Shown: positions 9,249-19,570 of the stretch, in pieces
How the letters are laid out: every line of letters starts with the position of its first letter
Position numbering within the stretch: the first letter of the stretch is position 1
DNA from: an uncultured Clostridia bacterium
GTDB taxonomy: Bacteria > Bacillota > Clostridia > Lachnospirales > Lachnospiraceae
Reading direction: 5' to 3'
Assembly (NCBI GenBank): GCA_946403295.1
Contig: CAMIZL010000024.1
Coordinates: 1-32,134 of the forward strand
Length of the DNA stretch: 32,134 bases
Translations under genes and position numbers: made by a program
The notes under the pieces: model-generated
Told to the model about the DNA's origin: nothing
Seen by the model: only the letters and a program-made list of their open reading frames with translations
Database searches by the model: none

Positions 9249-9278
9249 ATGAACAATTCCATTACTAGGAGGTTCTAC

Positions 9279-11270
9279 ATGAAGAGGACTATCAAAGGCA
9301 CTCTTACTGTCGCAGTTATCATAATCGTTGCACTCGGTATGCTTGTCTGCGCTTCGGTAATAGTAGCTATAGCAGGCAATAACATTAAATCCGGCAAGAA
9401 GAATGAGATCCAGCTCAATGCCGATAAATATGCCAATTCGATCAACAGCTGGATAGAGAAAGAAAAAGGTCTTAATATCGCAGGCGCTACGGCACTCGCC
9501 GCACTTTCCGACGAAAGCTATAACGCGGCAAATATGCAGAACATTGTAACCATAGAATCTAATGAAAGAAGTAATCTTCTCAATCTTTATTACGGAACCG
9601 AAGATAAACTCTTCCTTCAGACCGACCCCAACGCTACCACTCCCGACGGCTACGATCCCACAGCCAGAGGCTGGTACAAATCAGCAAAAGCAGCAGGCGG
9701 CACGATCGTTACCGATCCTTACATGGACGTTCTTATCGGCGGTATGTGTATCACCATCGCTTCCCCCGTTTACAGGAACGGACAGCTCGTGGGCGTTCTC
9801 GGAGCCGATTTCACACTCGACTACATAAACGGCGTAATAAACGCTATCCCTTACGAGTCAGGTGAATACGGATTCCTTGTTGATTCAAGTGCAAATTACG
9901 TTATCCATCAAAATACCGAATTCCTTCCCGGCGAAGACGTGGCAACCGCAGTCAGCAGTGTTATGCCCGCTCTCAAGGGGATCATCGACAAACCCGGCAG
10001 CGAGATCCTTACCACCGATGATTATGACGCAAGCTCCAAGTGTTTCGTAACATCAAGTATCGAGGGTTGCAACTGGCTTCTCGGACTTGCAATGCCTTAT
10101 TCAAACATCAACAGGTCCGTTATAACCATGATCATTCTTGCGATCGTGATCGCGCTTGTTGCCATCGTTCTCGTTGTCTTCATCATGACGACCCTCATCA
10201 GAAAGCAGCTTGCTCCCATGGAAAAGATGAAGACATTTATCACGGAAAGGATCGTTTCCGATACGAATTCTTCCGAACACAAAGACGAAGTCAAGCAGAT
10301 CGATTACCTCATCGGCGAGCTCGAGACACGCTTTGTTAACGCTATGCGCAAGACTATGAGCGAGTCGGAGATCATCTCTGACAAGATGACTTCCACCACC
10401 GAAAAGATCAACGGAATCAACGATTCGATCGCTCAGATCAACGAAGCAATGATCAGAACAGAGTCCGGTATTGAAAGCCAGACAACGAGCATCAAGACTA
10501 TCGAAGGCATCTGTACCGATGTTACTTCCGCATCAGATACATTTGCAAGGGATACTCAGGAGATGAACAAGAAGACCGACGAGATCATCGAACGTGTCGA
10601 GCAGACCATCCCTCAGATCCTCACAAACAAGAAACATGCGGTGGACGTTACGGGTCAGGCAAGCACGCAGCTTGAAGAAGCTCTGAGCGGTATCAGGGTT
10701 ATCGAGCAGATCGGCGAAGTTGCCGGCGCGATCAGAAGCATCGCAAGCCAGACGAACCTCCTCGCGCTCAACGCTTCCATTGAGGCAGCAAGAGCAGGTG
10801 AGGCGGGACGCGGATTCGCAGTCGTTGCCGACGAGATCAACAACCTCAGTACAACAACCTCCAGCGAGATCGACAAAGTTAACTCTCTTATCAGCACCGT
10901 TAATGAAAATGTCAACTATCTCGCAAACACCAGCCGTCAGATCATCAAATTCCTTAATGAAAATGTTCTTTCGGACTATGATAACCTCGAGACTCTTGCA
11001 AACAATTACAGAAACGACGCAACATATTACAGCGAAGTCAGCAAAGTTCTCGGCGACTGCGCAAATGACCTGACCGCTTCCGTTTCGGACATCAACAGAG
11101 TCCTTGACCAGATCTCATCCGCACAGGGAGAGCTCGGAAGCGCTGTACATGATATTTCAAACAATATGCAGTCGATCACAAGTGCATCCCGGAACATGTC
11201 CGGCGAAGCAGGCGATGTTGTTGACAGTATTGCGGCCCTTCGTGAAACGACCGCACACTTTAACATATAA
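9279..11270 (+). CDS. Methyl-accepting chemotaxis protein with double Cache sensor domain
   Basis: This membrane chemoreceptor has 663 residues. A first membrane helix lies at about 8-32. An external Cache region of about 240 residues follows; it contains [11 protein letters not shown], the typical DPTxRxWY signature of dCache_1 domains that often bind amino acids or other small metabolites. A second membrane helix lies at about 282-308. After it comes a short, atypical HAMP-like segment and a cytoplasmic coiled coil whose hairpin tip is [16 protein letters not shown] (about 495-510), the CheA/CheW contact region. The start is set at 9279, where AGGAGG lies 6 nt upstream; the earlier in-frame ATG at 9249 overlaps the -10 box. 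It shares an operon with the next receptor, 46 bp downstream. The ligand cannot be read from the sequence. Confidence 0.93.
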
Positions 11271-11316
11271 AACAGATTGACGAGCATACAAAAAATATGC
11301 AGAAGGGAGAATCCAT

Positions 11317-12993
11317 ATGAAACAAGGCAAAAAGCTCACTCTTAATCTCACGCTTGTTTTATTTGCCCTTGTACCTGTTTTGGTAACCGCTGTGGTTCTT
11401 GCGATAGTTACCTCAAGTATTACGGCCAGCAGGCTCGAAGACAATATACGCGAAGAGCTCGAGATTTCGGCAAACAGTCTTTTGGAGTATTATCAATACG
11501 ATTTTGAGGAAGCTCACGATCTCGACGACGGTTTTATTTCATATGATAACGATTATGTGGACACCATGGGTGTTTTCGGCGTTGACTTTACCATATGCAA
11601 AGAAAACGTCAGATTTATCACTACGATAAAAGATGACAGCGGCAAACGTATCGAAGGAACTAAGGTTTCCGAGACCATCTGGAACTCGGTTAAGGAAGGA
11701 AACACCTACTTCTCCGAAAGCATTGTCATCCTCGAAAGACCTTATTACGGCTTCTATCTTCCTTTGAAGAATTCCTATGGTCAGGTAGTCGGAATGGTAT
11801 TTGCGGCAAAACCCGCGGTAGATGTTCAGGCCGCCAAGACCGTGAGCATAATAACCATTGTTATCCTTTCTCTCGGTCTTGTTGCTGTCTTTGCTGTTCT
11901 TGCAATCCTTGTGGCTCGTAAGATCGCAAAACCCATGGCAAAGGCTACGGCAGGAATTGAAGAACTTGCGAACGGAAATACCGAGATCGTCATTGACGGT
12001 TCCTCCTTTGTAAAAGAAACATCCCGTCTGCTTGATTCGGCGAAGATACTCGCAGGCGTTCTTGCCGAATCCATCGGTAAGATCAGGAACTGCACCGGCA
12101 ATATCGTTAACAGCATCGGTTCTACCAACGAGCAGACAAGAGTTTCTGCCGATTCGATCGCACAGATCAACCAGTCGATGGATGATCTCTCCAAAACAAC
12201 CGTTACCATGGCGGAAAGCGTTCAGGATATCAGCAGCGAGATTATCGAGATGGGTCAGATGGTTGATACGGCTACGGGAAGCGCCGAAAAACTCAGTGAC
12301 AACGCCAAGGCCATGAATAAAGCAAATGCCGAAGCAAGTCAGTGTATCGAAAGCGTTGTTTCTTCTTCCGACAAATCATCAAAGGCCATCGATACCATCA
12401 CAGACAGGATCAAGGCTACAAACAATGCTATCGTAAAGATCAACGAGATGGTCAAGATGATCACCGGCATAGCAAACCAGACTAACCTTCTTGCACTCAA
12501 TGCTTCGATCGAAGCCGCAAGAGCAGGCGAAGCAGGTCGCGGATTTGCTGTCGTTGCCGAAGAGATCGGCCAGCTTGCTGCCCAGAGTAACGAGTCCGCA
12601 AGACAGATCGACGACATAGTTGACGAGATCGGCAAACTCTCGAAAGAATGTGTTGAGGAATCTTCGATCGTTAAAACGCTTATCGATGAAGAGAAGTCCC
12701 TCCTCTCCACCACTCTCGAGAAGTTCAAAGCTCTCGATTCAAATATCAAGGCTTCAATCGACGAGATTTCGGATATTGCCGATATCACCAAGAAGCTTGA
12801 TTCGGTCAAGAACAACGTAACGACTTCCATCAGCGACCTTTCGGCCATCTCTCAGGAAACATCGGCCACCAACGAGGAAGTCAGCGCAACAGTCGAATCC
12901 GTTGCTTCAAACATGCGTCAGCTTTCACTCGACAGCGACTCAATGAGCAACGAAGCAAAACAGCTCGAAGACGCGGTTTCATATTTCAAATGA
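11317..12993 (+). CDS. Methyl-accepting chemotaxis protein with single Cache domain
   Basis: This is a chemoreceptor of 558 residues. The first membrane helix lies at about 8-32. The external domain is small (about 130 residues), with [15 protein letters not shown] and a closing [13 protein letters not shown] strand, typical of single Cache domains. The second helix is at about 170-196 and a HAMP segment ([20 protein letters not shown]) follows at about 197-217. The signalling tip [16 protein letters not shown] is near residue 395. The C-terminal coiled coil ends at SYFK, and no CheR/CheB-docking pentapeptide is seen. A GGGAGA site lies about 8 nt before the ATG. It is co-transcribed with the receptor before it, and a strong terminator follows the stop codon. 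Confidence 0.92.
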
Positions 12994-12998
12994 TTAAA

Positions 12999-13032
12999 GA
13001 GAGCCCCGGAGGATCCATCCTCCCGGGCTCTC
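12999..13032. terminator. Bidirectional terminator between convergent genes
   Basis: A 16-bp stem with one C-C mismatch (12999-13014 with 13017-13032) has a tiny loop. It starts 5 bp after the chemoreceptor stop codon and 11 bp beyond the end of the convergent NhaC gene. It is followed by a moderately T-rich tract on the plus strand, and a TTTAAT tract follows on the minus strand. It probably serves both genes. Confidence 0.85.
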
Positions 13033-13042
13033 CTTATGTTAT

Positions 13043-14686
13043 TTAATTGTCTGCCGTTACTTGTTCTTTCCCGGATCTGAACGACTTCATCACGAGAAGG
13101 AATGCCACCGTGAGCAGGATTCCGAGCGGGATCGATAACCATGTGAGACCGATCCGGTCAAGCAGACCGGCTGCAAGGAACGAAACGAACGATATACATG
13201 CGACCGTGATCGCGTATGGCAACTGCGTCTCTACGTGATCGATATGATTACATTGGGCACCCGCCGAAGACATGATCGTCGTATCGGAAATAGGCGAGCA
13301 ATGATCGCCGCAAACAGCGCCTGCAAGACAAGCCGAAATACCCACATAGAACAGTGAACTGGTCTCAGGGAATACGTTCGAAACGATCGGTATAAGAATA
13401 CCGAATGTTGCCCACGAAGTTCCGGTCGCAAACGCTATGATGCAGGCAACAACGAAGATAACCGCGGGAAGGAGCCACGTAAGATCCCCTGCGCCTTCCA
13501 TAAAATCCTTAACAAATGCCGTTGCGGCAAGTTCTTCTTTGGTCATGTTCTTAAGAGCCTGTGCAAGCACAAGGATCGTAATGGCGGGAACCATGGCCAT
13601 AAATCCCTTCGGAATGCAATCCATGGCGTCTTTGAAATTGATAATACGTCTCGCAACAAGGTATACGATGATCATTACGAGAGCGATTATACTTCCCCAG
13701 GGGAGTCCTATACCGGAATCGGTTTCGGAAAATGCATAAATGAAATCGCCTTCCCAATTGATGTTTTCAAAACCGTTATAAAGGAGACCGCCTACGCAAC
13801 AAACGATCAGAAGTATGATCGGGATGATAAGATCGTGCGTCTTTCCGCGACCTTTTTTCTCGGGACCGTTCTCTTCCACCTCGCGACGACTGTGATCCTT
13901 ATCGGGATCCGAATCAAGGATCGAAAGATCTCCGGTTTCACGGGCTTTTATCTCGAAGCCGCTCATCTTTCCGTAATCAATTCCAAAAAAGATGATACCG
14001 ATGATAAATACAAATGTGAGGATTGAATAGAAATTATAAGGGATAGATCTTATAAAGAGCTCGATACCCGAATACTGCTCACTTTCAACGCAGCTGGAAA
14101 CCGCTGCGGCCCACGATGATACGGGTGCTATCATACAAACGGGAGCCGCCGTCGCATCAATGATATATGCAAGCTTAACTCTCGATATCTTCTTGCTGTC
14201 GGTGATCGGTGACATAACCGAACCTACCGTAAGGCAGTTAAAATAATCATCGATAAAGATCAGAACACCGAATACAAATGTTGCAAACAATGCTCCCGGT
14301 TTTGTCTTGATATTAGTTGATGCCCATCTGCCGAACGCACGCGAAGCACCTGATTTATTGATCAGAGCAACGATGACACCCAGAATGACAAGGAAGATAA
14401 ATACTCCGGCATTATCTCCGATAGCTTTCGAAAGTGCATTAACCGTCAATACGTTAAGAGTATTCCCGACAGAACACTCTGCCACCATAAACGCGCCGAG
14501 CAGAACTCCGATAAACAGTGACGAATACGCTTCCTTTGTAATAAGAGCGAGCGCGATCGCCACAAAAGCCGGAAGCAGCGCCCACGCAGTTCCCACAAAT
14601 GATACTCCGAGCTTTTGCTCAATAATCACCAGCACGAATGGTAAAATAATTACTGCCAGCGCGATCGGGATCCGTTTTTTATTCAT
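13043..14686 (-). CDS. NhaC-family Na+/H+ antiporter-like transporter
   Basis: This 547-residue integral membrane protein of the NhaC family (ion transporter superfamily) has about 11-12 helices. Characteristic segments are FIDDYFNCLTVGSVM, the following ATAAPVCMIAPVSSWAA, GTSWATFGILIPI and GDHCSPISDTTIMSSAGAQC. A charged cytoplasmic loop, rich in Asp, Arg and Lys, lies at about 255-290. Family members exchange Na+ and H+ or move organic substrates such as amino acids or malate/lactate. Position here, directly after a racemase and an amino-acid ABC transporter, makes an amino-acid exchanger (histidine is the first guess) plausible, but this is inference. AGGAGGAGGT lies about 5 nt before the start. 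The 158-bp leader has strong secondary structure. The gene is last in the minus-strand cluster. Confidence 0.88.
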   Translation of the reverse strand: MNKKRIPIALAVIILPFVLVIIEQKLGVSFVGTAWALLPAFVAIALALITKEAYSSLFIGVLLGAFMVAECSVGNTLNVLTVNALSKAIGDNAGVFIFLVILGVIVALINKSGASRAFGRWASTNIKTKPGALFATFVFGVLIFIDDYFNCLTVGSVMSPITDSKKISRVKLAYIIDATAAPVCMIAPVSSWAAAVSSCVESEQYSGIELFIRSIPYNFYSILTFVFIIGIIFFGIDYGKMSGFEIKARETGDLSILDSDPDKDHSRREVEENGPEKKGRGKTHDLIIPIILLIVCCVGGLLYNGFENINWEGDFIYAFSETDSGIGLPWGSIIALVMIIVYLVARRIINFKDAMDCIPKGFMAMVPAITILVLAQALKNMTKEELAATAFVKDFMEGAGDLTWLLPAVIFVVACIIAFATGTSWATFGILIPIVSNVFPETSSLFYVGISACLAGAVCGDHCSPISDTTIMSSAGAQCNHIDHVETQLPYAITVACISFVSFLAAGLLDRIGLTWLSIPLGILLTVAFLLVMKSFRSGKEQVTADN

Positions 14687-14701
14687 ATTTACCTCCTCCT
14701 T

Positions 14702-14822
14702 GGAAACGATTGTGATCGCTTCCGTTTCCTTGCCTCTTCAATTCCCGAAGGGAATGATCAAGGCCTTTAGGTCAAAGACTGCACACGTGTTGCTCGTGTA
14801 GCAGGCATTTACCTCGCAACAC
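14702..14822 (-). promoter_or_regulatory. Structured leader with possible pseudoknot before the NhaC gene
   Basis: On the minus strand, a 9-bp stem with one bulge (14795-14804 with 14779-14787) has a 7-nt loop. That loop is complementary to an upstream GUGUUGC (14822-14816), so an H-type pseudoknot is possible; alternatively the two pairings exclude each other. A small hairpin AUUCCC-UUC-GGGAAU follows near 14741-14755. A 7-bp stem GGAAACG/CGUUUCC (14723-14729 with 14702-14708) then ends just before the ribosome site. I could not match it to a known riboswitch class. Confidence 0.45.
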
Positions 14823-14844
14823 TTTAATTTTACAGAAAAACTGC

Positions 14845-15693
14845 TTAAAAATCAAAGGCTTCCGTGATATTTACAGTTCCGGAAAGAAGCAAACGCATCT
14901 CCCGGTCGCAGGTTCCTCCCGGTACCGCCTCAACGGTAAGGATCCCGCCGGGTTCGGTCAGACTGATTTTTACGGGTCTGTTCTCTTTATGTGCGAGATA
15001 CGCTCCGATCGCGGTCGTTCCGCTGGCACAACTGCTCTCCCATACAAGAGTTCCGGCTTCGGGAACATACACAAGCGGATCGAGTCTGTTCTGCGCGCTG
15101 TCATATATCATTAACCCGAGGCACCCGGCCCGAAGTGTGTCACACCACATCATCACGGCTTTTTCGGGGTCGAAATTGTTTTTTGAAGATTCCCCGGCGT
15201 CGATGATCACATGCGTAATACCGCCAAAATCAACAACCGGAAGCTCATATTCTTTCCCTTCGAACAGAAGCTTCTCCGCTTTGACCGAAAGAGGTTTCGG
15301 CATTTCGACAGTTCCGACATACGAGCCGTCTTCTTTTACTTCGACAAGTACTTTGCAGATTTCTTCGACGCCGGACGCAAGCACCTTTACCTCATGGATC
15401 CCGGGGACCCTTTGCCTGCCCCCAAAGGATCCTAAGAGCCCCTCCTTTTTCGCGACAAAAAGAACCGCCGCCGACATGGTGGCATTTCCGCAAAATTCTC
15501 CACCCGCCATCATAAGGCTTATGTCAGCGGGATCATTTTCGCTTCCGTAACTGATAAAGCCGACCTGCTCGGCGGTCGGCTCTTTATCCATTAATTTTGC
15601 GGCTACCCCGGCACGTTTGTCCGCAGGTACGTCGCCTTCCGCCAGAATCGTAATATTCCCGGTAGGATCCGGGATGTAATACTTTAATTTCAT
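14845..15693 (-). CDS. CntK-type amino-acid racemase, probably histidine racemase
   Basis: This 282-residue protein has the diaminopimelate-epimerase fold, but its motifs match the histidine racemase branch (Staphylococcus CntK) rather than DapF, as I recall those sequences. The motifs are DPTGNITILAE near the N-terminus, EQVGFI, GGEFCGNATMSAA with Cys68, LVYVPE, and WESSCASGTTAIG with Cys222. The two cysteines should act as the acid/base pair of a cofactor-free racemase. The start is taken at 15693, where AAGGA lies about 7 nt upstream; an ATG nine codons earlier (15720) has a poorer site. The genes cntL and cntM needed for staphylopine are not in the window, so D-histidine is more likely made for another use. 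It lies between an amino-acid ABC transporter and an NhaC-type transporter on the same strand. Confidence 0.8.
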   Translation of the reverse strand: MKLKYYIPDPTGNITILAEGDVPADKRAGVAAKLMDKEPTAEQVGFISYGSENDPADISLMMAGGEFCGNATMSAAVLFVAKKEGLLGSFGGRQRVPGIHEVKVLASGVEEICKVLVEVKEDGSYVGTVEMPKPLSVKAEKLLFEGKEYELPVVDFGGITHVIIDAGESSKNNFDPEKAVMMWCDTLRAGCLGLMIYDSAQNRLDPLVYVPEAGTLVWESSCASGTTAIGAYLAHKENRPVKISLTEPGGILTVEAVPGGTCDREMRLLLSGTVNITEAFDF

Positions 15694-15733
15694 AGCGTTT
15701 TCCTTCCGGTCGTCACTCATTTTATTGACGACC

Positions 15734-16492
15734 TCATTGTTCGTATGACTTGAGGAATTTACGGGTTCTTTCCTGCTTCGGGTTGCCGAAGACTTCCTCG
15801 GGGTCGCCCTGTTCGACGATCACGCCGCCGTCCATGAAGATCACGCGGTTGCTCACCGCCCTCGCGAAGCTCATTTCGTGTGTGACAATGACCATGGTCA
15901 TGTGTTCTTCCGCAAGCTTTCTGATGATCTTCAAAACTTCGATCGTAAGCTCGGGGTCGAGCGCCGATGTAGGCTCATCAAAGAATAATATCTCAGGCTT
16001 CATCGCAAGCGCCCTCGCGATGGCGACTCTTTGCTGCTGTCCTCCCGAGAGCTGGCAGGGATAGGCGTCTGCCTTGTCCTCAAGACCCATGGAGCGCAAC
16101 AGTTCCACGGCTTCCGCACTGACCTCTTCCTCGTTTCGGCCGTGAACCTTGACCGGTGCGTCGCAAATATTCTTGAGCACCGAGAAATGAGGAAAGAGGT
16201 TGAATTGCTGGAACACGAGACCGAAGTATTCCTTGACGGTCTTCATTTTTTCTTTCGGCAGGTATGAAACCTTTCCCGAGGAGTCGGTGGAGGCTGCTGT
16301 TGTGTCCATATACGTTACGGAACCGCCGTCAATGGTTTCAAGGAATGTCGCGCAGCGCAGGAGTGTCGATTTTCCGGATCCCGAAGGGCCGATTATGCTG
16401 ACAACCTCGCCGTGATCTACAGACAACGAAATGTCCTTTAAAACTTCCTGTCCGTCGAAGCTTTTCTGTATGTTTTTCATTTCAAGAACCAT
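15734..16492 (-). CDS. Amino-acid ABC transporter, ATP-binding protein
   Basis: This is a 252-residue ATPase of the polar amino-acid uptake family (GlnQ/HisP type). Walker A is GPSGSGKST (35-43), the Q-loop lies in [13 protein letters not shown], the signature is [14 protein letters not shown], Walker B is [13 protein letters not shown], and the H-loop is VTHEM. It differs slightly from close relatives by a small insertion around the [19 protein letters not shown] segment (about residues 60-80), which this subfamily often has. The start is placed at 16492, with AAGGAG 6 nt upstream. The frame extends further but would overlap the permease gene. It begins 10 bp after the permease stop codon, so both are surely co-transcribed. 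Confidence 0.93.
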
Positions 16493-16502
16493 AGAGGACT
16501 CC

Positions 16503-17150
16503 TTAATTGTAGTACTTGAGCGATTTTTCGATACGTTCCATACCGAAAGCCACGACATAATTTGCAACAAAATAGAATACGCCCGCGATCACGAACGGCG
16601 TGAAGCTTGTTTGCGACGCCGAGATCTGCTTTGCGATCGAGAATACTTCCGAATACGCTAACGTATATGCGAGCGAGGTGTCCTTTACAAGCGTGATGAC
16701 CTCATTCGTTATCGAGGGGAGAATACGCTTAAACACCTGAGGCATGATGATCCTGAAGAACGTCTGCGCTTTTGAATATCCGAGCACTTCCGCCGCTTCA
16801 TATTGGCCGATCGGCATCGATTCTATGCCGCCGCGGTAGATCTCCGCGAAATAACATGCATAATTAACGACAAAGCCGAGCAGCAGACCGGGGAATCTCC
16901 ATCCTCTGATGGACCAGCCGAAGAGATAGTAGGGTCCGAAGTACCACACAAGGAGCTGCAGCATAAGCGGTGTACCGCGGATCACCGCGATAAACGCTTT
17001 GGTTATGCCGGAAACGACCTTGTTCTTCGAGGTCCTCAAAAGCATGATCCCGACACCGAGGGGGAGTGACCCGAGAAGAGTCAAAAGGAAGATCCCGATG
17101 GTGGCCAGCATGCCTTCGCCCATGGTTGTGAGCATTGTACCGAAAGTCAT
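16503..17150 (-). CDS. Amino-acid ABC transporter, permease
   Basis: This 215-residue permease belongs to the HisM/GlnP type. About five membrane helices are visible, along with the EAA-type loop that contacts the ATPase ([21 protein letters not shown]) and the N-terminal family signature [22 protein letters not shown] lies about 7 nt before the ATG. A single permease gene implies a homodimeric channel. It lies between the binding-protein gene (64 bp upstream, with a weak terminator-like hairpin) and the ATPase gene (10 bp downstream). Confidence 0.93.
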
Positions 17151-17171
17151 AAAATTCTCCTGTTGTTTTCC

Positions 17172-17208
17172 AAAAAAAGGTTCCGCCTCACTCTAAATCA
17201 CACGGACC
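17172..17208 (-). terminator. Weak, leaky terminator-like hairpin after the binding-protein gene
   Basis: On the minus strand GGUCCG (17203-17208) can pair with CGGAACC (17179-17185, one bulged A), followed by seven U residues (17172-17178). The loop is long. Such partial terminators after a binding-protein gene often give more binding protein than permease. Confidence 0.35.
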
Positions 17209-17214
17209 GGCTCT

Positions 17215-17991
17215 TTATTTTCCGAGACAAAGATATTCGTAGATGTCGGGATATTTCTTTCCGATCTTGTCATATGTTCCGTCCTTAACAAGATCGTCGA
17301 TCGCTGCATTAACCTTGTCACGAAGCTCCGTATCGTCCTTGCGGAATCCGATGGCGTACTGTTCGCTGCCGAGTACTTCGTCAAGGAATTTATATCCCTT
17401 TTCGTTGTTCATAAGGAAGTTGCCGCTTGTAACATCGATCGCAATAGCATCGATGGCGCCTGCCTTAAGATCGTTGAATGCGATCGTATATGTCTCATAG
17501 ATGCCAAGGTTTCCGAATGTCTTCGCAAGCTCGGCCTGACCTTCTTCGTCCTGCAGGAGGTCATATGCTGATGTCGCGGTCTGAACGCCGACGCTCTTGC
17601 CGGCAAGATCTGTGAGTGTCTCGATGCCGCTGTTCTCAGCGACCATGATCATCTGTGTATTGTCCGAATATGCCTTACTCCAGCAATAATCGTCTTCACG
17701 GCCGTTGATCGTGAAACCCGACCAGATGCAGTCGCAGCTGCCCGAATTGAGCTCGGCATCCTTTACGTCCCAAAGGAAAGGAACTGCTTCATACTTCCAT
17801 CCGAGGTGTTCGCAAACTGCCTGAGCGAACTCAACGTCAAATCCGCCGACCGAACCGTCATCGTTACGGAACGAATAAGGCGGATAATCAAGATCAAATC
17901 CGTGTTTAAATGTAAATTCCTCCTCTTTGCCGCAAGCAACAAGTGAGAGAACCATAACTGCAACGAGTAAAAATGCCAAAACTTTTTTCAT
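17215..17991 (-). CDS. Amino-acid ABC transporter, substrate-binding lipoprotein
   Basis: This 258-residue extracellular binding protein of the SBP_bac_3 family is anchored by a lipid at Cys20 (lipobox SLVAC). Family motifs include YPPYSFRNDDGSVGGFDVEFAQAV, followed by LTDLAGKSVGVQTATSA and the DAIAIDVTSGNFL hinge region. It should deliver a polar amino acid to the permease and ATPase downstream. Histidine is suggested only by the neighbouring racemase. The ribosome site is modest (AAAGG about 11 nt upstream). Upstream lies a 527-bp divergent intergenic region with repeats and a terminator-like hairpin, so control by a leader RNA is possible. Confidence 0.92.
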   Translation of the reverse strand: MKKVLAFLLVAVMVLSLVACGKEEEFTFKHGFDLDYPPYSFRNDDGSVGGFDVEFAQAVCEHLGWKYEAVPFLWDVKDAELNSGSCDCIWSGFTINGREDDYCWSKAYSDNTQMIMVAENSGIETLTDLAGKSVGVQTATSAYDLLQDEEGQAELAKTFGNLGIYETYTIAFNDLKAGAIDAIAIDVTSGNFLMNNEKGYKFLDEVLGSEQYAIGFRKDDTELRDKVNAAIDDLVKDGTYDKIGKKYPDIYEYLCLGK

Positions 17992-18040
17992 TTCGTATAT
18001 ACCTTTCTGTGTTTCATTTTGAGTGAAAGCACTGCGCCCG

Positions 18041-18166
18041 CCCCGTGCGCCCGTTCCCTGTTTTGCAGAGCATCCCGGCTTTCCCCGTGCGCCCCTTCCC
18101 GGTTTCGCAGAGCATCCCGGCTCTCCCCGTGCGCCCGTTCCCGGTTTCGCAGAGCGTCCCGGCTTT
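18041..18166. repeat. Three tandem copies of a 42-bp GC-rich repeat
   Basis: Units begin near 18041, 18083 and 18125, each containing CCCGTGCGCCC and GCAGAGC(A/G)TCCCGGCT, with only a few differences. The array lies 50-175 bp before the binding-protein gene and, read on the minus strand, would be in its leader. Each unit can form a short AGAGC/GCTCT hairpin. No gene covers it; the plus-strand open frame across it just repeats 14 residues and is not convincing. Confidence 0.85.
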
Positions 18167-18204
18167 CACCACCGCATTACTCTGCTACTATACTACAAAC
18201 GCGG

Positions 18205-18232
18205 CAAAAATAAAAGCCTCCCCGCGGGAGGC
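18205..18232 (-). terminator. Minus-strand intrinsic terminator hairpin in the divergent region
   Basis: A perfect 7-bp stem, GCCTCCC (18226-18232 read on the minus strand) with GGGAGGC (18216-18222), has a 3-nt loop and is followed on the minus strand by TTTTATTTTTG. It lies about 215 bp before the binding-protein gene. It either ends a small or antisense RNA, or acts as an attenuator in a long leader of the transporter operon. Confidence 0.65.
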
Positions 18233-18327
18233 CGTCGTCCGCCCGACACACGGGGGATCTTGATTCATCCGCCGCCTGCACTTGCAGCCCGTCATGAAAA
18301 AAATCAGGAAGTAAGACGACACGTGTA

Positions 18328-18356
18328 TTTACAAATTATCGTGCAACGTATAGAAT
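18328..18356 (+). promoter_or_regulatory. Promoter of the auxin-efflux-carrier gene
   Basis: TTTACA (18328-18333) and TAGAAT (18351-18356) are separated by 17 nt. The transcript would begin near 18363, giving a leader of about 155 nt that contains all three 39-bp hairpin repeats. Confidence 0.65.
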
Positions 18357-18379
18357 AATGGGCTGTGAAAAAAAATCGG

Positions 18380-18507
18380 TCACATATACATTAAGAAGTT
18401 TAATCCGCCCCGAACGGATCATATATACATTAAGAAGTTTGATCCGCCCCGAACGGATCATATATACATTAAGAAGTTTGATCCGCCCCGAACGGATCAC
18501 ATATACA
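18380..18507 (+). repeat. Three tandem 39-bp repeats, each with a hairpin, in the leader of the AEC gene
   Basis: Units begin at 18380, 18419 and 18458, with a partial fourth at 18497-18507 that touches the ribosome site GAGGAG (18508-18513). Each unit has ATTAAGAAGTTT and a GATCCG-CCCCGAA-CGGATC hairpin. In the first unit the initial G is A, weakening the stem. The units differ at only a few positions. Confidence 0.9.
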
Positions 18508-18518
18508 GAGGAGTTATT

Positions 18519-19460
18519 ATGAGCTTAACGATCATGCTGCAGCAGATGGGCGTTATCTGCATTCTTGTTGCGATAGGTTTCTTCCTTGAGAAGAAGAACG
18601 TTATAGATTCCCTCACTTCGAAGAAATTGTCCGCCATCGTTGTCGATGTGTGCAATCCCGCGATGATCCTTGCTTCGATCCTGGGCGGGAACATAACGGC
18701 CGGTCATGCGGATCTCATTAACGCCATCATCCTCGGAGCGGTATTTTACGCGGTTCTCGTGGTCATCGGCATCATCATGCCGCACATCCTCCGCGTCGAG
18801 CGCGATAAGCGTAAGTTCTATAATCTCATGTGCGTTTATACGAACACGGGCTTTCTCGGGATTCCCGTGGCGAAAGCCATCCTGCCCGCGAACGCTATCA
18901 TATACGTTATCGTTATAAATGTGTTTTACAGCCTTTTCTTCTACACACACGGCCTGACGGTGCTCGGTAACGGCCCGGAGGACGAGGGCAAAAAGAAGGA
19001 AAATCCCCTTAAGCACATCATTAACCCCGGAACGATCATGGCGATCTTTGCGCTTGTAGTGTTCTGGTTCAACCTCGAACTTCCGCCCATTATCGCAAAT
19101 ACAGTCGAATATGTCGGCAACGCAACCGTTTTCCTGTCGATGACGATGCTCGGCGTGTCGATCGCGCGCTCGAATATCCTCAAAAGGATTGGGGATGTGC
19201 GCATCTGGGTGTTCATTGTGTTAAGACTTGTCATCTTCCCCGTGATCGTTGTGCTCCTCATGCACGTGCTCGGGTTTGATAAGACAGCTACGCTCGGTAT
19301 CGCCCTCATGGCAGCCGTTCCCGTCGGAAACCTGCCCATGATCCAGGCCGAGAAGAAAGGCATGGATTCAACCATCCTCTCCACCGCCGTCGCTATCACC
19401 ACCACGGTATCGCTGATCACAATAACAGCGCTGATAGCCGTAGCCACAGCGCTGCTGTAA
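18519..19460 (+). CDS. Auxin efflux carrier (AEC) family permease
   Basis: This 313-residue membrane protein of the AEC family has about 10 helices in two halves. Family features are an N-terminal half with LSAIVVDVCNPAMILAS, the YTNTGFLGIPV segment, and the C-terminal LGIALMAAVPVGNLPMI region. Bacterial AEC proteins carry organic acids (malate, malonate) or amino acids; the substrate is not clear here. GAGGAG lies 5 nt before the ATG. The gene stands alone, divergent from the amino-acid ABC operon. The 155-nt leader with three hairpin repeats suggests post-transcriptional control. The reading direction is convergent with the EAL gene, and no clear terminator is seen between them. Confidence 0.9.
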   Translation: MSLTIMLQQMGVICILVAIGFFLEKKNVIDSLTSKKLSAIVVDVCNPAMILASILGGNITAGHADLINAIILGAVFYAVLVVIGIIMPHILRVERDKRKFYNLMCVYTNTGFLGIPVAKAILPANAIIYVIVINVFYSLFFYTHGLTVLGNGPEDEGKKKENPLKHIINPGTIMAIFALVVFWFNLELPPIIANTVEYVGNATVFLSMTMLGVSIARSNILKRIGDVRIWVFIVLRLVIFPVIVVLLMHVLGFDKTATLGIALMAAVPVGNLPMIQAEKKGMDSTILSTAVAITTTVSLITITALIAVATALL

Positions 19461-19570
19461 AATCTTCAGTCCATTTTTAGTTCGACGCCTTCTTTATATG
19501 ATCTCTGTTTCTCCCGTTTCTGCCTGTCCCACACGGCCGTCACGGTCCGTGAGCCCCATCCCCATAGGGA

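Follow-up and report, generated by a model that had tools for sequence, protein, structure and literature searches.

A window of 32,134 nucleotides from an uncultured Lachnospiraceae bacterium (GenBank assembly GCA_946403295.1, contig CAMIZL010000024.1) contains five consecutive minus-strand genes, encoding the solute-binding protein (SBP), permease, and ATPase of an ATP-binding cassette (ABC) transporter, a racemase related to the staphylopine enzyme CntK, and an NhaC-type secondary transporter. Judging from sequence comparison, we moderately favor the view that the first four genes constitute an operon for histidine uptake and racemization, through which D-histidine would be converted to L-histidine under shortage. 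The most plausible identity of the transporter is the histidine importer HisXYZ, and the racemase probably interconverts D- and L-histidine. The computed evidence comprises the gene content, the conservation of the four-gene order, the enrichment of operators, the phylogeny of the racemase, the presence of the repressor HisR and of histidinol dehydrogenase in the host genomes, and the lack of a histidine ammonia-lyase match in those genomes. No description of such an importer-racemase operon was found in the literature on histidine racemases, D-histidine, and CntK with transporters, a survey in which racemases were not searched together with hisXYZ by name and from which subscription papers were mostly absent.

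A conserved importer-racemase gene order

An earlier note, made from the sequence alone, had recognized the five genes in a row, and all five open reading frames (ORFs) were confirmed in place. The features are as follows, with genomes and loci cited below by their G and L numbers.

17215..17991, minus strand: SBP, a family-3 solute-binding lipoprotein, HisX-like (SBP_bac_3, 8e-32)
16503..17150, minus strand: amino-acid ABC permease, HisY-like (BPD_transp_1, 4e-24; TIGR01726 above cut-off)
15734..16492, minus strand: ABC ATPase, HisZ*-like (ABC_tran, 8e-33)
14845..15720, minus strand: CntK/HisR-type cofactor-independent racemase (NCBIfam and PDB matches, conserved residues)
13043..14686, minus strand: NhaC/Tet(35)-type secondary transporter (PF03553, Na_H_antiporter, 1.9e-53)
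18173..18192, minus strand: weak candidate HisR operator, TATAGTAGCAGAGTAATGCG (8.8 bits, matrix built outside the genus)
18041..18167, strand not assigned: tandem repeat, 3 x 42 bp, separating the candidate operator from the SBP start

The intergenic gaps, in transcription order, are 64, 10, 13, and 158 bp, and the last of these makes the NhaC gene the loosest member of the five. The ATPase ORF extends to a TTG at 16570 (15734-16570), with an alternative start at ATG 16492; the latter is most likely the true start, since the resulting length better matches the homologues, which mostly have 252-260 residues. The SBP has its best PDB sequence match in 4ohn (1.3e-35), a structure that we take to have been solved with histidine bound, and the SBP and permease are 62% and 72% identical, respectively, to their counterparts in the equivalent operon of L003. 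The host genome (G000) measures 2.39 Mb and is 99.2% complete.

Racemase profile searches of even draws from larger groups were positive for 17 of 397 genomes at the family level and 47 of 392 at the order level; the union of 58 genomes, together with G011 and G015 of the same genus, gave 60 order loci. The SBP, permease, and ATPase genes lie directly upstream of the racemase gene, on the same strand, in 44 of these 60 loci (43 plus the window), and the gap between ATPase and racemase is -20 to 20 bp in 36 of the 43 loci apart from the window, with a median of 12. One further locus, L081, is cut upstream by the end of its contig, and the other 15 are arranged differently: the ABC genes are convergent in L048 but divergent in L051, L043 and L046 have a lone SBP, L075 has an Opp-like ABC set, and ten loci have none of these genes. 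Flanking genes of the operon vary between families. As the four-gene order recurs in 44 loci, across many genera and with differing flanks, it is not due to chance. Thus, of the conserved five-gene order anticipated in the earlier note, the four-gene part held, whereas, among the 60 loci, the NhaC gene adjoins the racemase gene only in the window, G011, and G015. These three are also the only racemase-positive genomes among the 24 of the genus, all with five genes, and they were counted as a single case because their flanking genes are largely shared.

Several deviations from the usual architecture were noted among the relatives. Naturally occurring circularly permuted SBPs are encoded at L041:3458-4396 (+) and L066:3755-4576 (+), in genomes of two different families: residues 200-256 of the window SBP correspond to residues 66-122 of the L041 protein and residues 26-198 to its residues 142-312, L066 being alike, and the signal peptide still stands in front in both. 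In one genome, a D-hydantoinase-family gene (L036:7117-8649, +; TIGR02033 above cut-off) directly follows the racemase gene.

HisR-like operators and histidine genes of the host genomes

HisXYZ*, a histidine ABC importer of Firmicutes, is controlled by the TrpR-type repressor HisR through the operator cacTTTAnnnnnnTAAAgtg, and HisR of R. gnavus needs L-histidine for DNA binding (PMC9413887). The window operon has the same SBP-permease-ATPase set, and many of its relatives carry a like operator consensus; it differs by the racemase gene added after the ATPase gene, the word racemase having no occurrence (0) in the main text of that paper.

Operators were sought within 200 bp upstream of the SBP gene and 50 bp into it, at 48 racemase-linked loci of 23 genus-level groups (the window not counted, and L003 and L013 each supplying a group not sampled in the order draw); as controls, 518 regions upstream of other genes at these loci were used (512 in an earlier comparison, before one more locus was added). 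The published HisR consensus, with at least 11 of its 14 fixed letters matched, was found at 33 of the 48 loci (12 of 23 groups) versus 7 of the 518 controls (Fisher p 5e-14 on groups), and a leave-one-out matrix found sites in 26 of 33. A shortened core, CTTTA-N6-TA, is present in 36 of 48 targets, 13 of 23 groups, and 5 of 518 controls; this core was picked after the sites had been viewed, which could flatter the result, and the published 14-letter consensus is therefore the leading measure.

Within the genus, a matrix built without it ranked the sites of G011 and G002 higher than every one of the 403 controls and that of G015 higher than all but one, with no operator site in G023 or G012. 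In the window itself, the candidate operator ranks 6 of 64230 window positions and aligns with the stronger sites of G011, G015, and G002, the 42-bp repeats separating it from the SBP gene; a plain consensus search allowing three mismatches gave nothing upstream of the window operon. The same intergenic region, between the operon and a divergent AEC-family transporter gene, holds a second tandem array (18380-18507, 39 bp x 3.3) besides that at 18041-18167. Control by a T-box was rejected: no Rfam match was obtained in window positions 12000-19500, and the 22 relative loci scanned whole contain one T-box (L072 1176-1412, -), which does not precede an SBP gene.

With respect to the host genomes, 30 were searched, 26 of which are known to carry the racemase. 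The HisR repressor protein is present in 29 of them (in G000, TIGR02531 above cut-off on contig C12) and histidinol dehydrogenase in all 30, while the histidine ammonia-lyase family was matched in 0 of the 30 genomes and in 5 of 14 control genomes. Together, these three counts indicate that histidine is probably made and sensed, but not degraded by the common route.

The racemase, its relatives, and their settings

The window racemase gave no Pfam match at E values up to 1. Among NCBIfam models, it scores best with those of CntK (NF033599, 135 bits, 2.7e-39, cut-off 300) and of the Fusobacterium histidine racemase, which is likewise named HisR and is written FnHisR here (NF052224, 114 bits, 8e-33, cut-off 400); because both scores lie under the cut-off, the protein was classed as a relative with a probably similar function rather than as a CntK or FnHisR equivalog. 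The PDB sequence matches are again CntK (5e-24) and FnHisR (6e-23). The motifs EQVGFI, EFCGNATMS, and WESSCASGT, which the earlier note had quoted, are all present. The predicted catalytic residues, Cys77 (EFCGN) and Cys231 (E-x-x-C-x-SG), are invariant in 35 of 35 aligned relatives, as are Glu51, Glu75, and Glu228, which match CntK and FnHisR positions by alignment; CntK thus has its two cysteines and three glutamates at the same places. Imidazole binding has been proposed for Glu46 and Glu208 of CntK and for Glu65 and Glu206 of FnHisR (PMC11602996). In the genome's own DapF, the position of Glu75 is aligned with a lysine. Assignment as a true DapF was rejected, as the racemase has no PF01678 match and a separate DapF with that domain is encoded on contig C16 of G000.

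Phylogeny bore out the placement with CntK rather than DapF: in a 57-row tree, the window racemase falls in a 41-row set (99/98) containing the validated CntK and FnHisR, apart from DapF, whose very long branch makes the rooting weak. The operon rows L003, L036, and L040 lie outside this set, and sequences from Candidate Phyla, Lactococcus, Blautia, and others make up a separate group (99/100). In a second, 68-row tree, a 30-row set (90/98) unites L048, the order's operon racemases included in this tree, and a CntK group (100/99) of CntK, L093, L094, and L075, with FnHisR and the hutH-linked rows outside; the position of CntK beside a second operon group is weakly supported (83/56), the root having been chosen, not shown. 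Both trees omit L061 and L063 (broken frames), and the sequences of L007, L010, L011, L012, and L038 were trimmed to 290 residues; the second tree further omits the host DapF (DapF_own), L010, L011, L044, L052, L056, L059, L062, L064, and the 15 loci L078-L092, and holds one protein twice (L004 of Selenomonas ruminantium, identical to L096).

Variation within the family takes several forms. Long inserts, lacking from the window copy, occur at several places in the racemases at L024:5930-7246 (-), L023:6428-7387 (+), and L003:3289-4551 (+), and are low-complexity or repeated in L024 and L003; the interrupted frames of the operon-bearing L061 and L063 (genomes G678 and G681) reflect either decay or assembly error. 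On contigs of Candidate Phyla and one of Erysipelotrichaceae (L005, L006, L007, L008, L010, L011, L012), a relative of the racemase is encoded close to a D-Ala-D-Ala-dipeptidase-like protein, called by hidden Markov model (HMM) for L008 and by look for the others; the racemase frame continues into acyltransferase-looking sequence in L007 and L010, and hisS lies a few genes beyond the racemase relative in L008 and L012. The histidine racemase of Leuconostoc is of another kind, since it is called dependent on pyridoxal phosphate (PMC11602996; PMC6955911).

Genes of histidine metabolism neighbor the racemase elsewhere in the phylum. In a phylum-wide draw, the racemase was found in 23 of 398 genomes, and 20 of the 22 others were examined, with G1067 and G1077 left out. 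Histidine ammonia-lyase, confirmed by HMM, stands beside the racemase in 6 of the 20 loci (L103, L104, L106, L107, L109, and L112), together with urocanate hydratase in L104, and L111 resembles these loci at its N terminus. Furthermore, hisC lies two genes upstream of the racemase in L097, where SBP, permease, and ATPase genes follow downstream, and hisS two genes upstream in L100. L108 has the order NhaC-racemase-SBP, its NhaC being 46% identical to that of the window over 500 residues, and a sodium-solute symporter adjoins the racemase in L105 and L110 (by HMM for L105). Homologues of cntL and cntM adjoin the racemase in L093, with HMM matches under the curated cut-offs, and the L094 genome has a cntM match in the same place; no recognized histidine gene was found beside the racemase in the remaining loci of this draw. 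On a Blautia contig from a metagenome-assembled genome (L009), hisS overlaps the racemase gene, and an NhaC-family protein and an aromatic amino-acid lyase are also encoded. Within the order draw, L050 is near glutamate formimidoyltransferase and L054 looks alike; the settings of L044, L045, L049, L052, L053, and others are uninformative as to substrate.

Direction, substrate, and the NhaC-type transporter

These data suggest a scheme in which the HisXYZ-type transporter would import histidine, presumably as both enantiomers, and the racemase, probably co-transcribed with it, would interconvert D- and L-histidine without a cofactor by a two-cysteine mechanism, presumably a two-base racemization. 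HisR with L-histidine would repress the operon, allowing expression when L-histidine is scarce. Net flow from D to L is then most likely, because repression by L-histidine would leave the operon switched on during L-histidine shortage, when the D-to-L reaction would be the useful one, and because histidine ammonia-lyase, taken to act on L-histidine, neighbors the racemase in other families. D-histidine would thereby become a source of L-histidine for protein synthesis.

FnHisR is likewise cofactor-independent and without a tie to metallophores, and is described as encoded in an orphan operon near folate genes, its role unknown (PMC11602996); the window type differs in belonging to a conserved importer operon that suggests a role. 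What cofactor-independent histidine racemases do where no metallophore is involved is a question that this source leaves open for F. nucleatum, and the importer-racemase operon, the HisR-like operators, and the degradation-gene neighbors turn it into a growth test with D-histidine as the sole histidine source. More tentatively, and with somewhat less than even confidence, D-histidine may be a widespread nutrient that many Bacillota use through a HisR-repressed importer-racemase operon and others degrade through the racemase and histidine ammonia-lyase, the family having served for salvage before CntK was recruited from it for metallophores. This would suggest an origin for CntK and point to D-histidine as a traded nutrient.

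A number of observations weigh against D-histidine salvage by this operon. In G023 and G012, of the same genus, the SBP, permease, ATPase, and NhaC genes are kept with no racemase gene between ATPase and NhaC, so the racemase is dispensable. No convincing racemase remnants were found in the gaps of these two genomes; since both nest inside racemase-bearing rows of the ABC tree (three changes in all, one at the outgroup), loss of the racemase is favored. This tree was built without L030 and L031, in which SBP and permease are fused, and without L051, and two long branches joined in it (L037 with L035), far from the G023/G012 part. The racemase scores below both curated cut-offs, and it diverges fast: the window and G015 racemases are 54% identical by BLAST (64-65% over aligned columns), compared with 89.5-94.4% for the transporter parts. 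Exact half-sites, TTTA-N6-TAAA, were found in 5 of 48 targets and 8 of 518 controls, so that most operator sites are a variant near TACTTTAGCGTGGTAATGTG, and the candidate operator of the window is weak, 18 of 512 control upstreams reaching its 8.8 bits. Moreover, the racemase would drain L-histidine if there were no outside D-histidine, and growth of an F. nucleatum hisR mutant was reportedly not restored by added D-histidine (PMC11602996).

The best of the alternatives, though an unlikely one, is that the racemase runs from L to D, imported L-histidine yielding D-histidine for export (perhaps through NhaC), the cell wall, a signal, or some other product. This is the direction of CntK in staphylopine synthesis (PMC7438024), family members do stand beside cntL and cntM (L093), and a secondary transporter lies downstream in the window. 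However, staphylopine dehydrogenase CntM (NF033600) was found in none of the 29 importer-bearing genomes, G000 included and 26 of them with the racemase, although both of two positive controls were matched, if under the curated cut-off; CntL was not searched genome-wide. A step consuming L-histidine would also be ill placed in an operon induced by histidine shortage, and NhaC stands outside the unit beyond the genus, within the order. The absence of other staphylopine genes asserted in the earlier note is thus upheld for CntM, and a metallophore cluster was rejected, as the genome gave no match to this dehydrogenase; a search with PF10100 was uninformative, matching nothing anywhere, controls included. 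In all, the window racemase differs from CntK in its tie to a histidine-type importer, its score under the CntK cut-off, and a genome in which staphylopine dehydrogenase was not found.

Still less probable is that transporter and racemase act on another amino acid and that the resemblance to CntK misleads. The racemase is only about 30% identical to most other family members and scores below curated cut-offs, the SBP also matches NCBIfam models of cystine, glutamine, and Lys/Arg/Orn binding proteins, and the L037 racemase is paired with a distant ABC transporter, its SBP 31% identical to that of the window, so that the 44 importers are not all alike. Against this stand the HisR-like operators upstream, the hutH, hisS, and hisC neighbors of relatives, and the invariance of the glutamates proposed for imidazole binding (PMC11602996).

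As to the fifth gene, NhaC lies downstream of the importer in 5 of the 5 genus loci with a visible downstream gene, with and without racemase; of the 60 racemase loci of the order, three contain it, namely the window, L023, and L024. The highest-scoring model for the window protein is Tet(35), with a score far below its cut-off, and the PDB sequence search gave 0 matches. An NhaC-type protein, 0846, is the main histidine transporter of S. aureus (PMC10817146); like YuiF and 0846, the window NhaC has a histidine setting. With this precedent, a simpler interpretation of the gene is that it would encode a second histidine permease, probably one that was added to the operon within this genus.

The earlier note had proposed a single five-gene histidine exchange machine, with ABC import, racemization, and D/L exchange through NhaC, and this is very improbable: three genomes of the genus do have all five genes consecutively, L108 provides a single further case of NhaC-racemase-SBP, and the S. 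aureus transporter offers a precedent (PMC10817146), but NhaC is kept next to the importer in genomes that lack the racemase (G023 and G012), is found among the 59 other order racemase loci only in L023 and L024, and follows a 158-bp gap. Of the note's broader idea, exchange or salvage of a D-amino acid without a metallophore, salvage fits better than exchange, since the operators point to a histidine-repressed uptake operon.

Beside the NhaC gene, two chemoreceptor-like genes (window 9249-12993, +; family assigned by the look of the sequence) come to an end, and they occupy the same place in G011, G015, and the racemase-less G023; at a guess, they might sense a ligand such as histidine.

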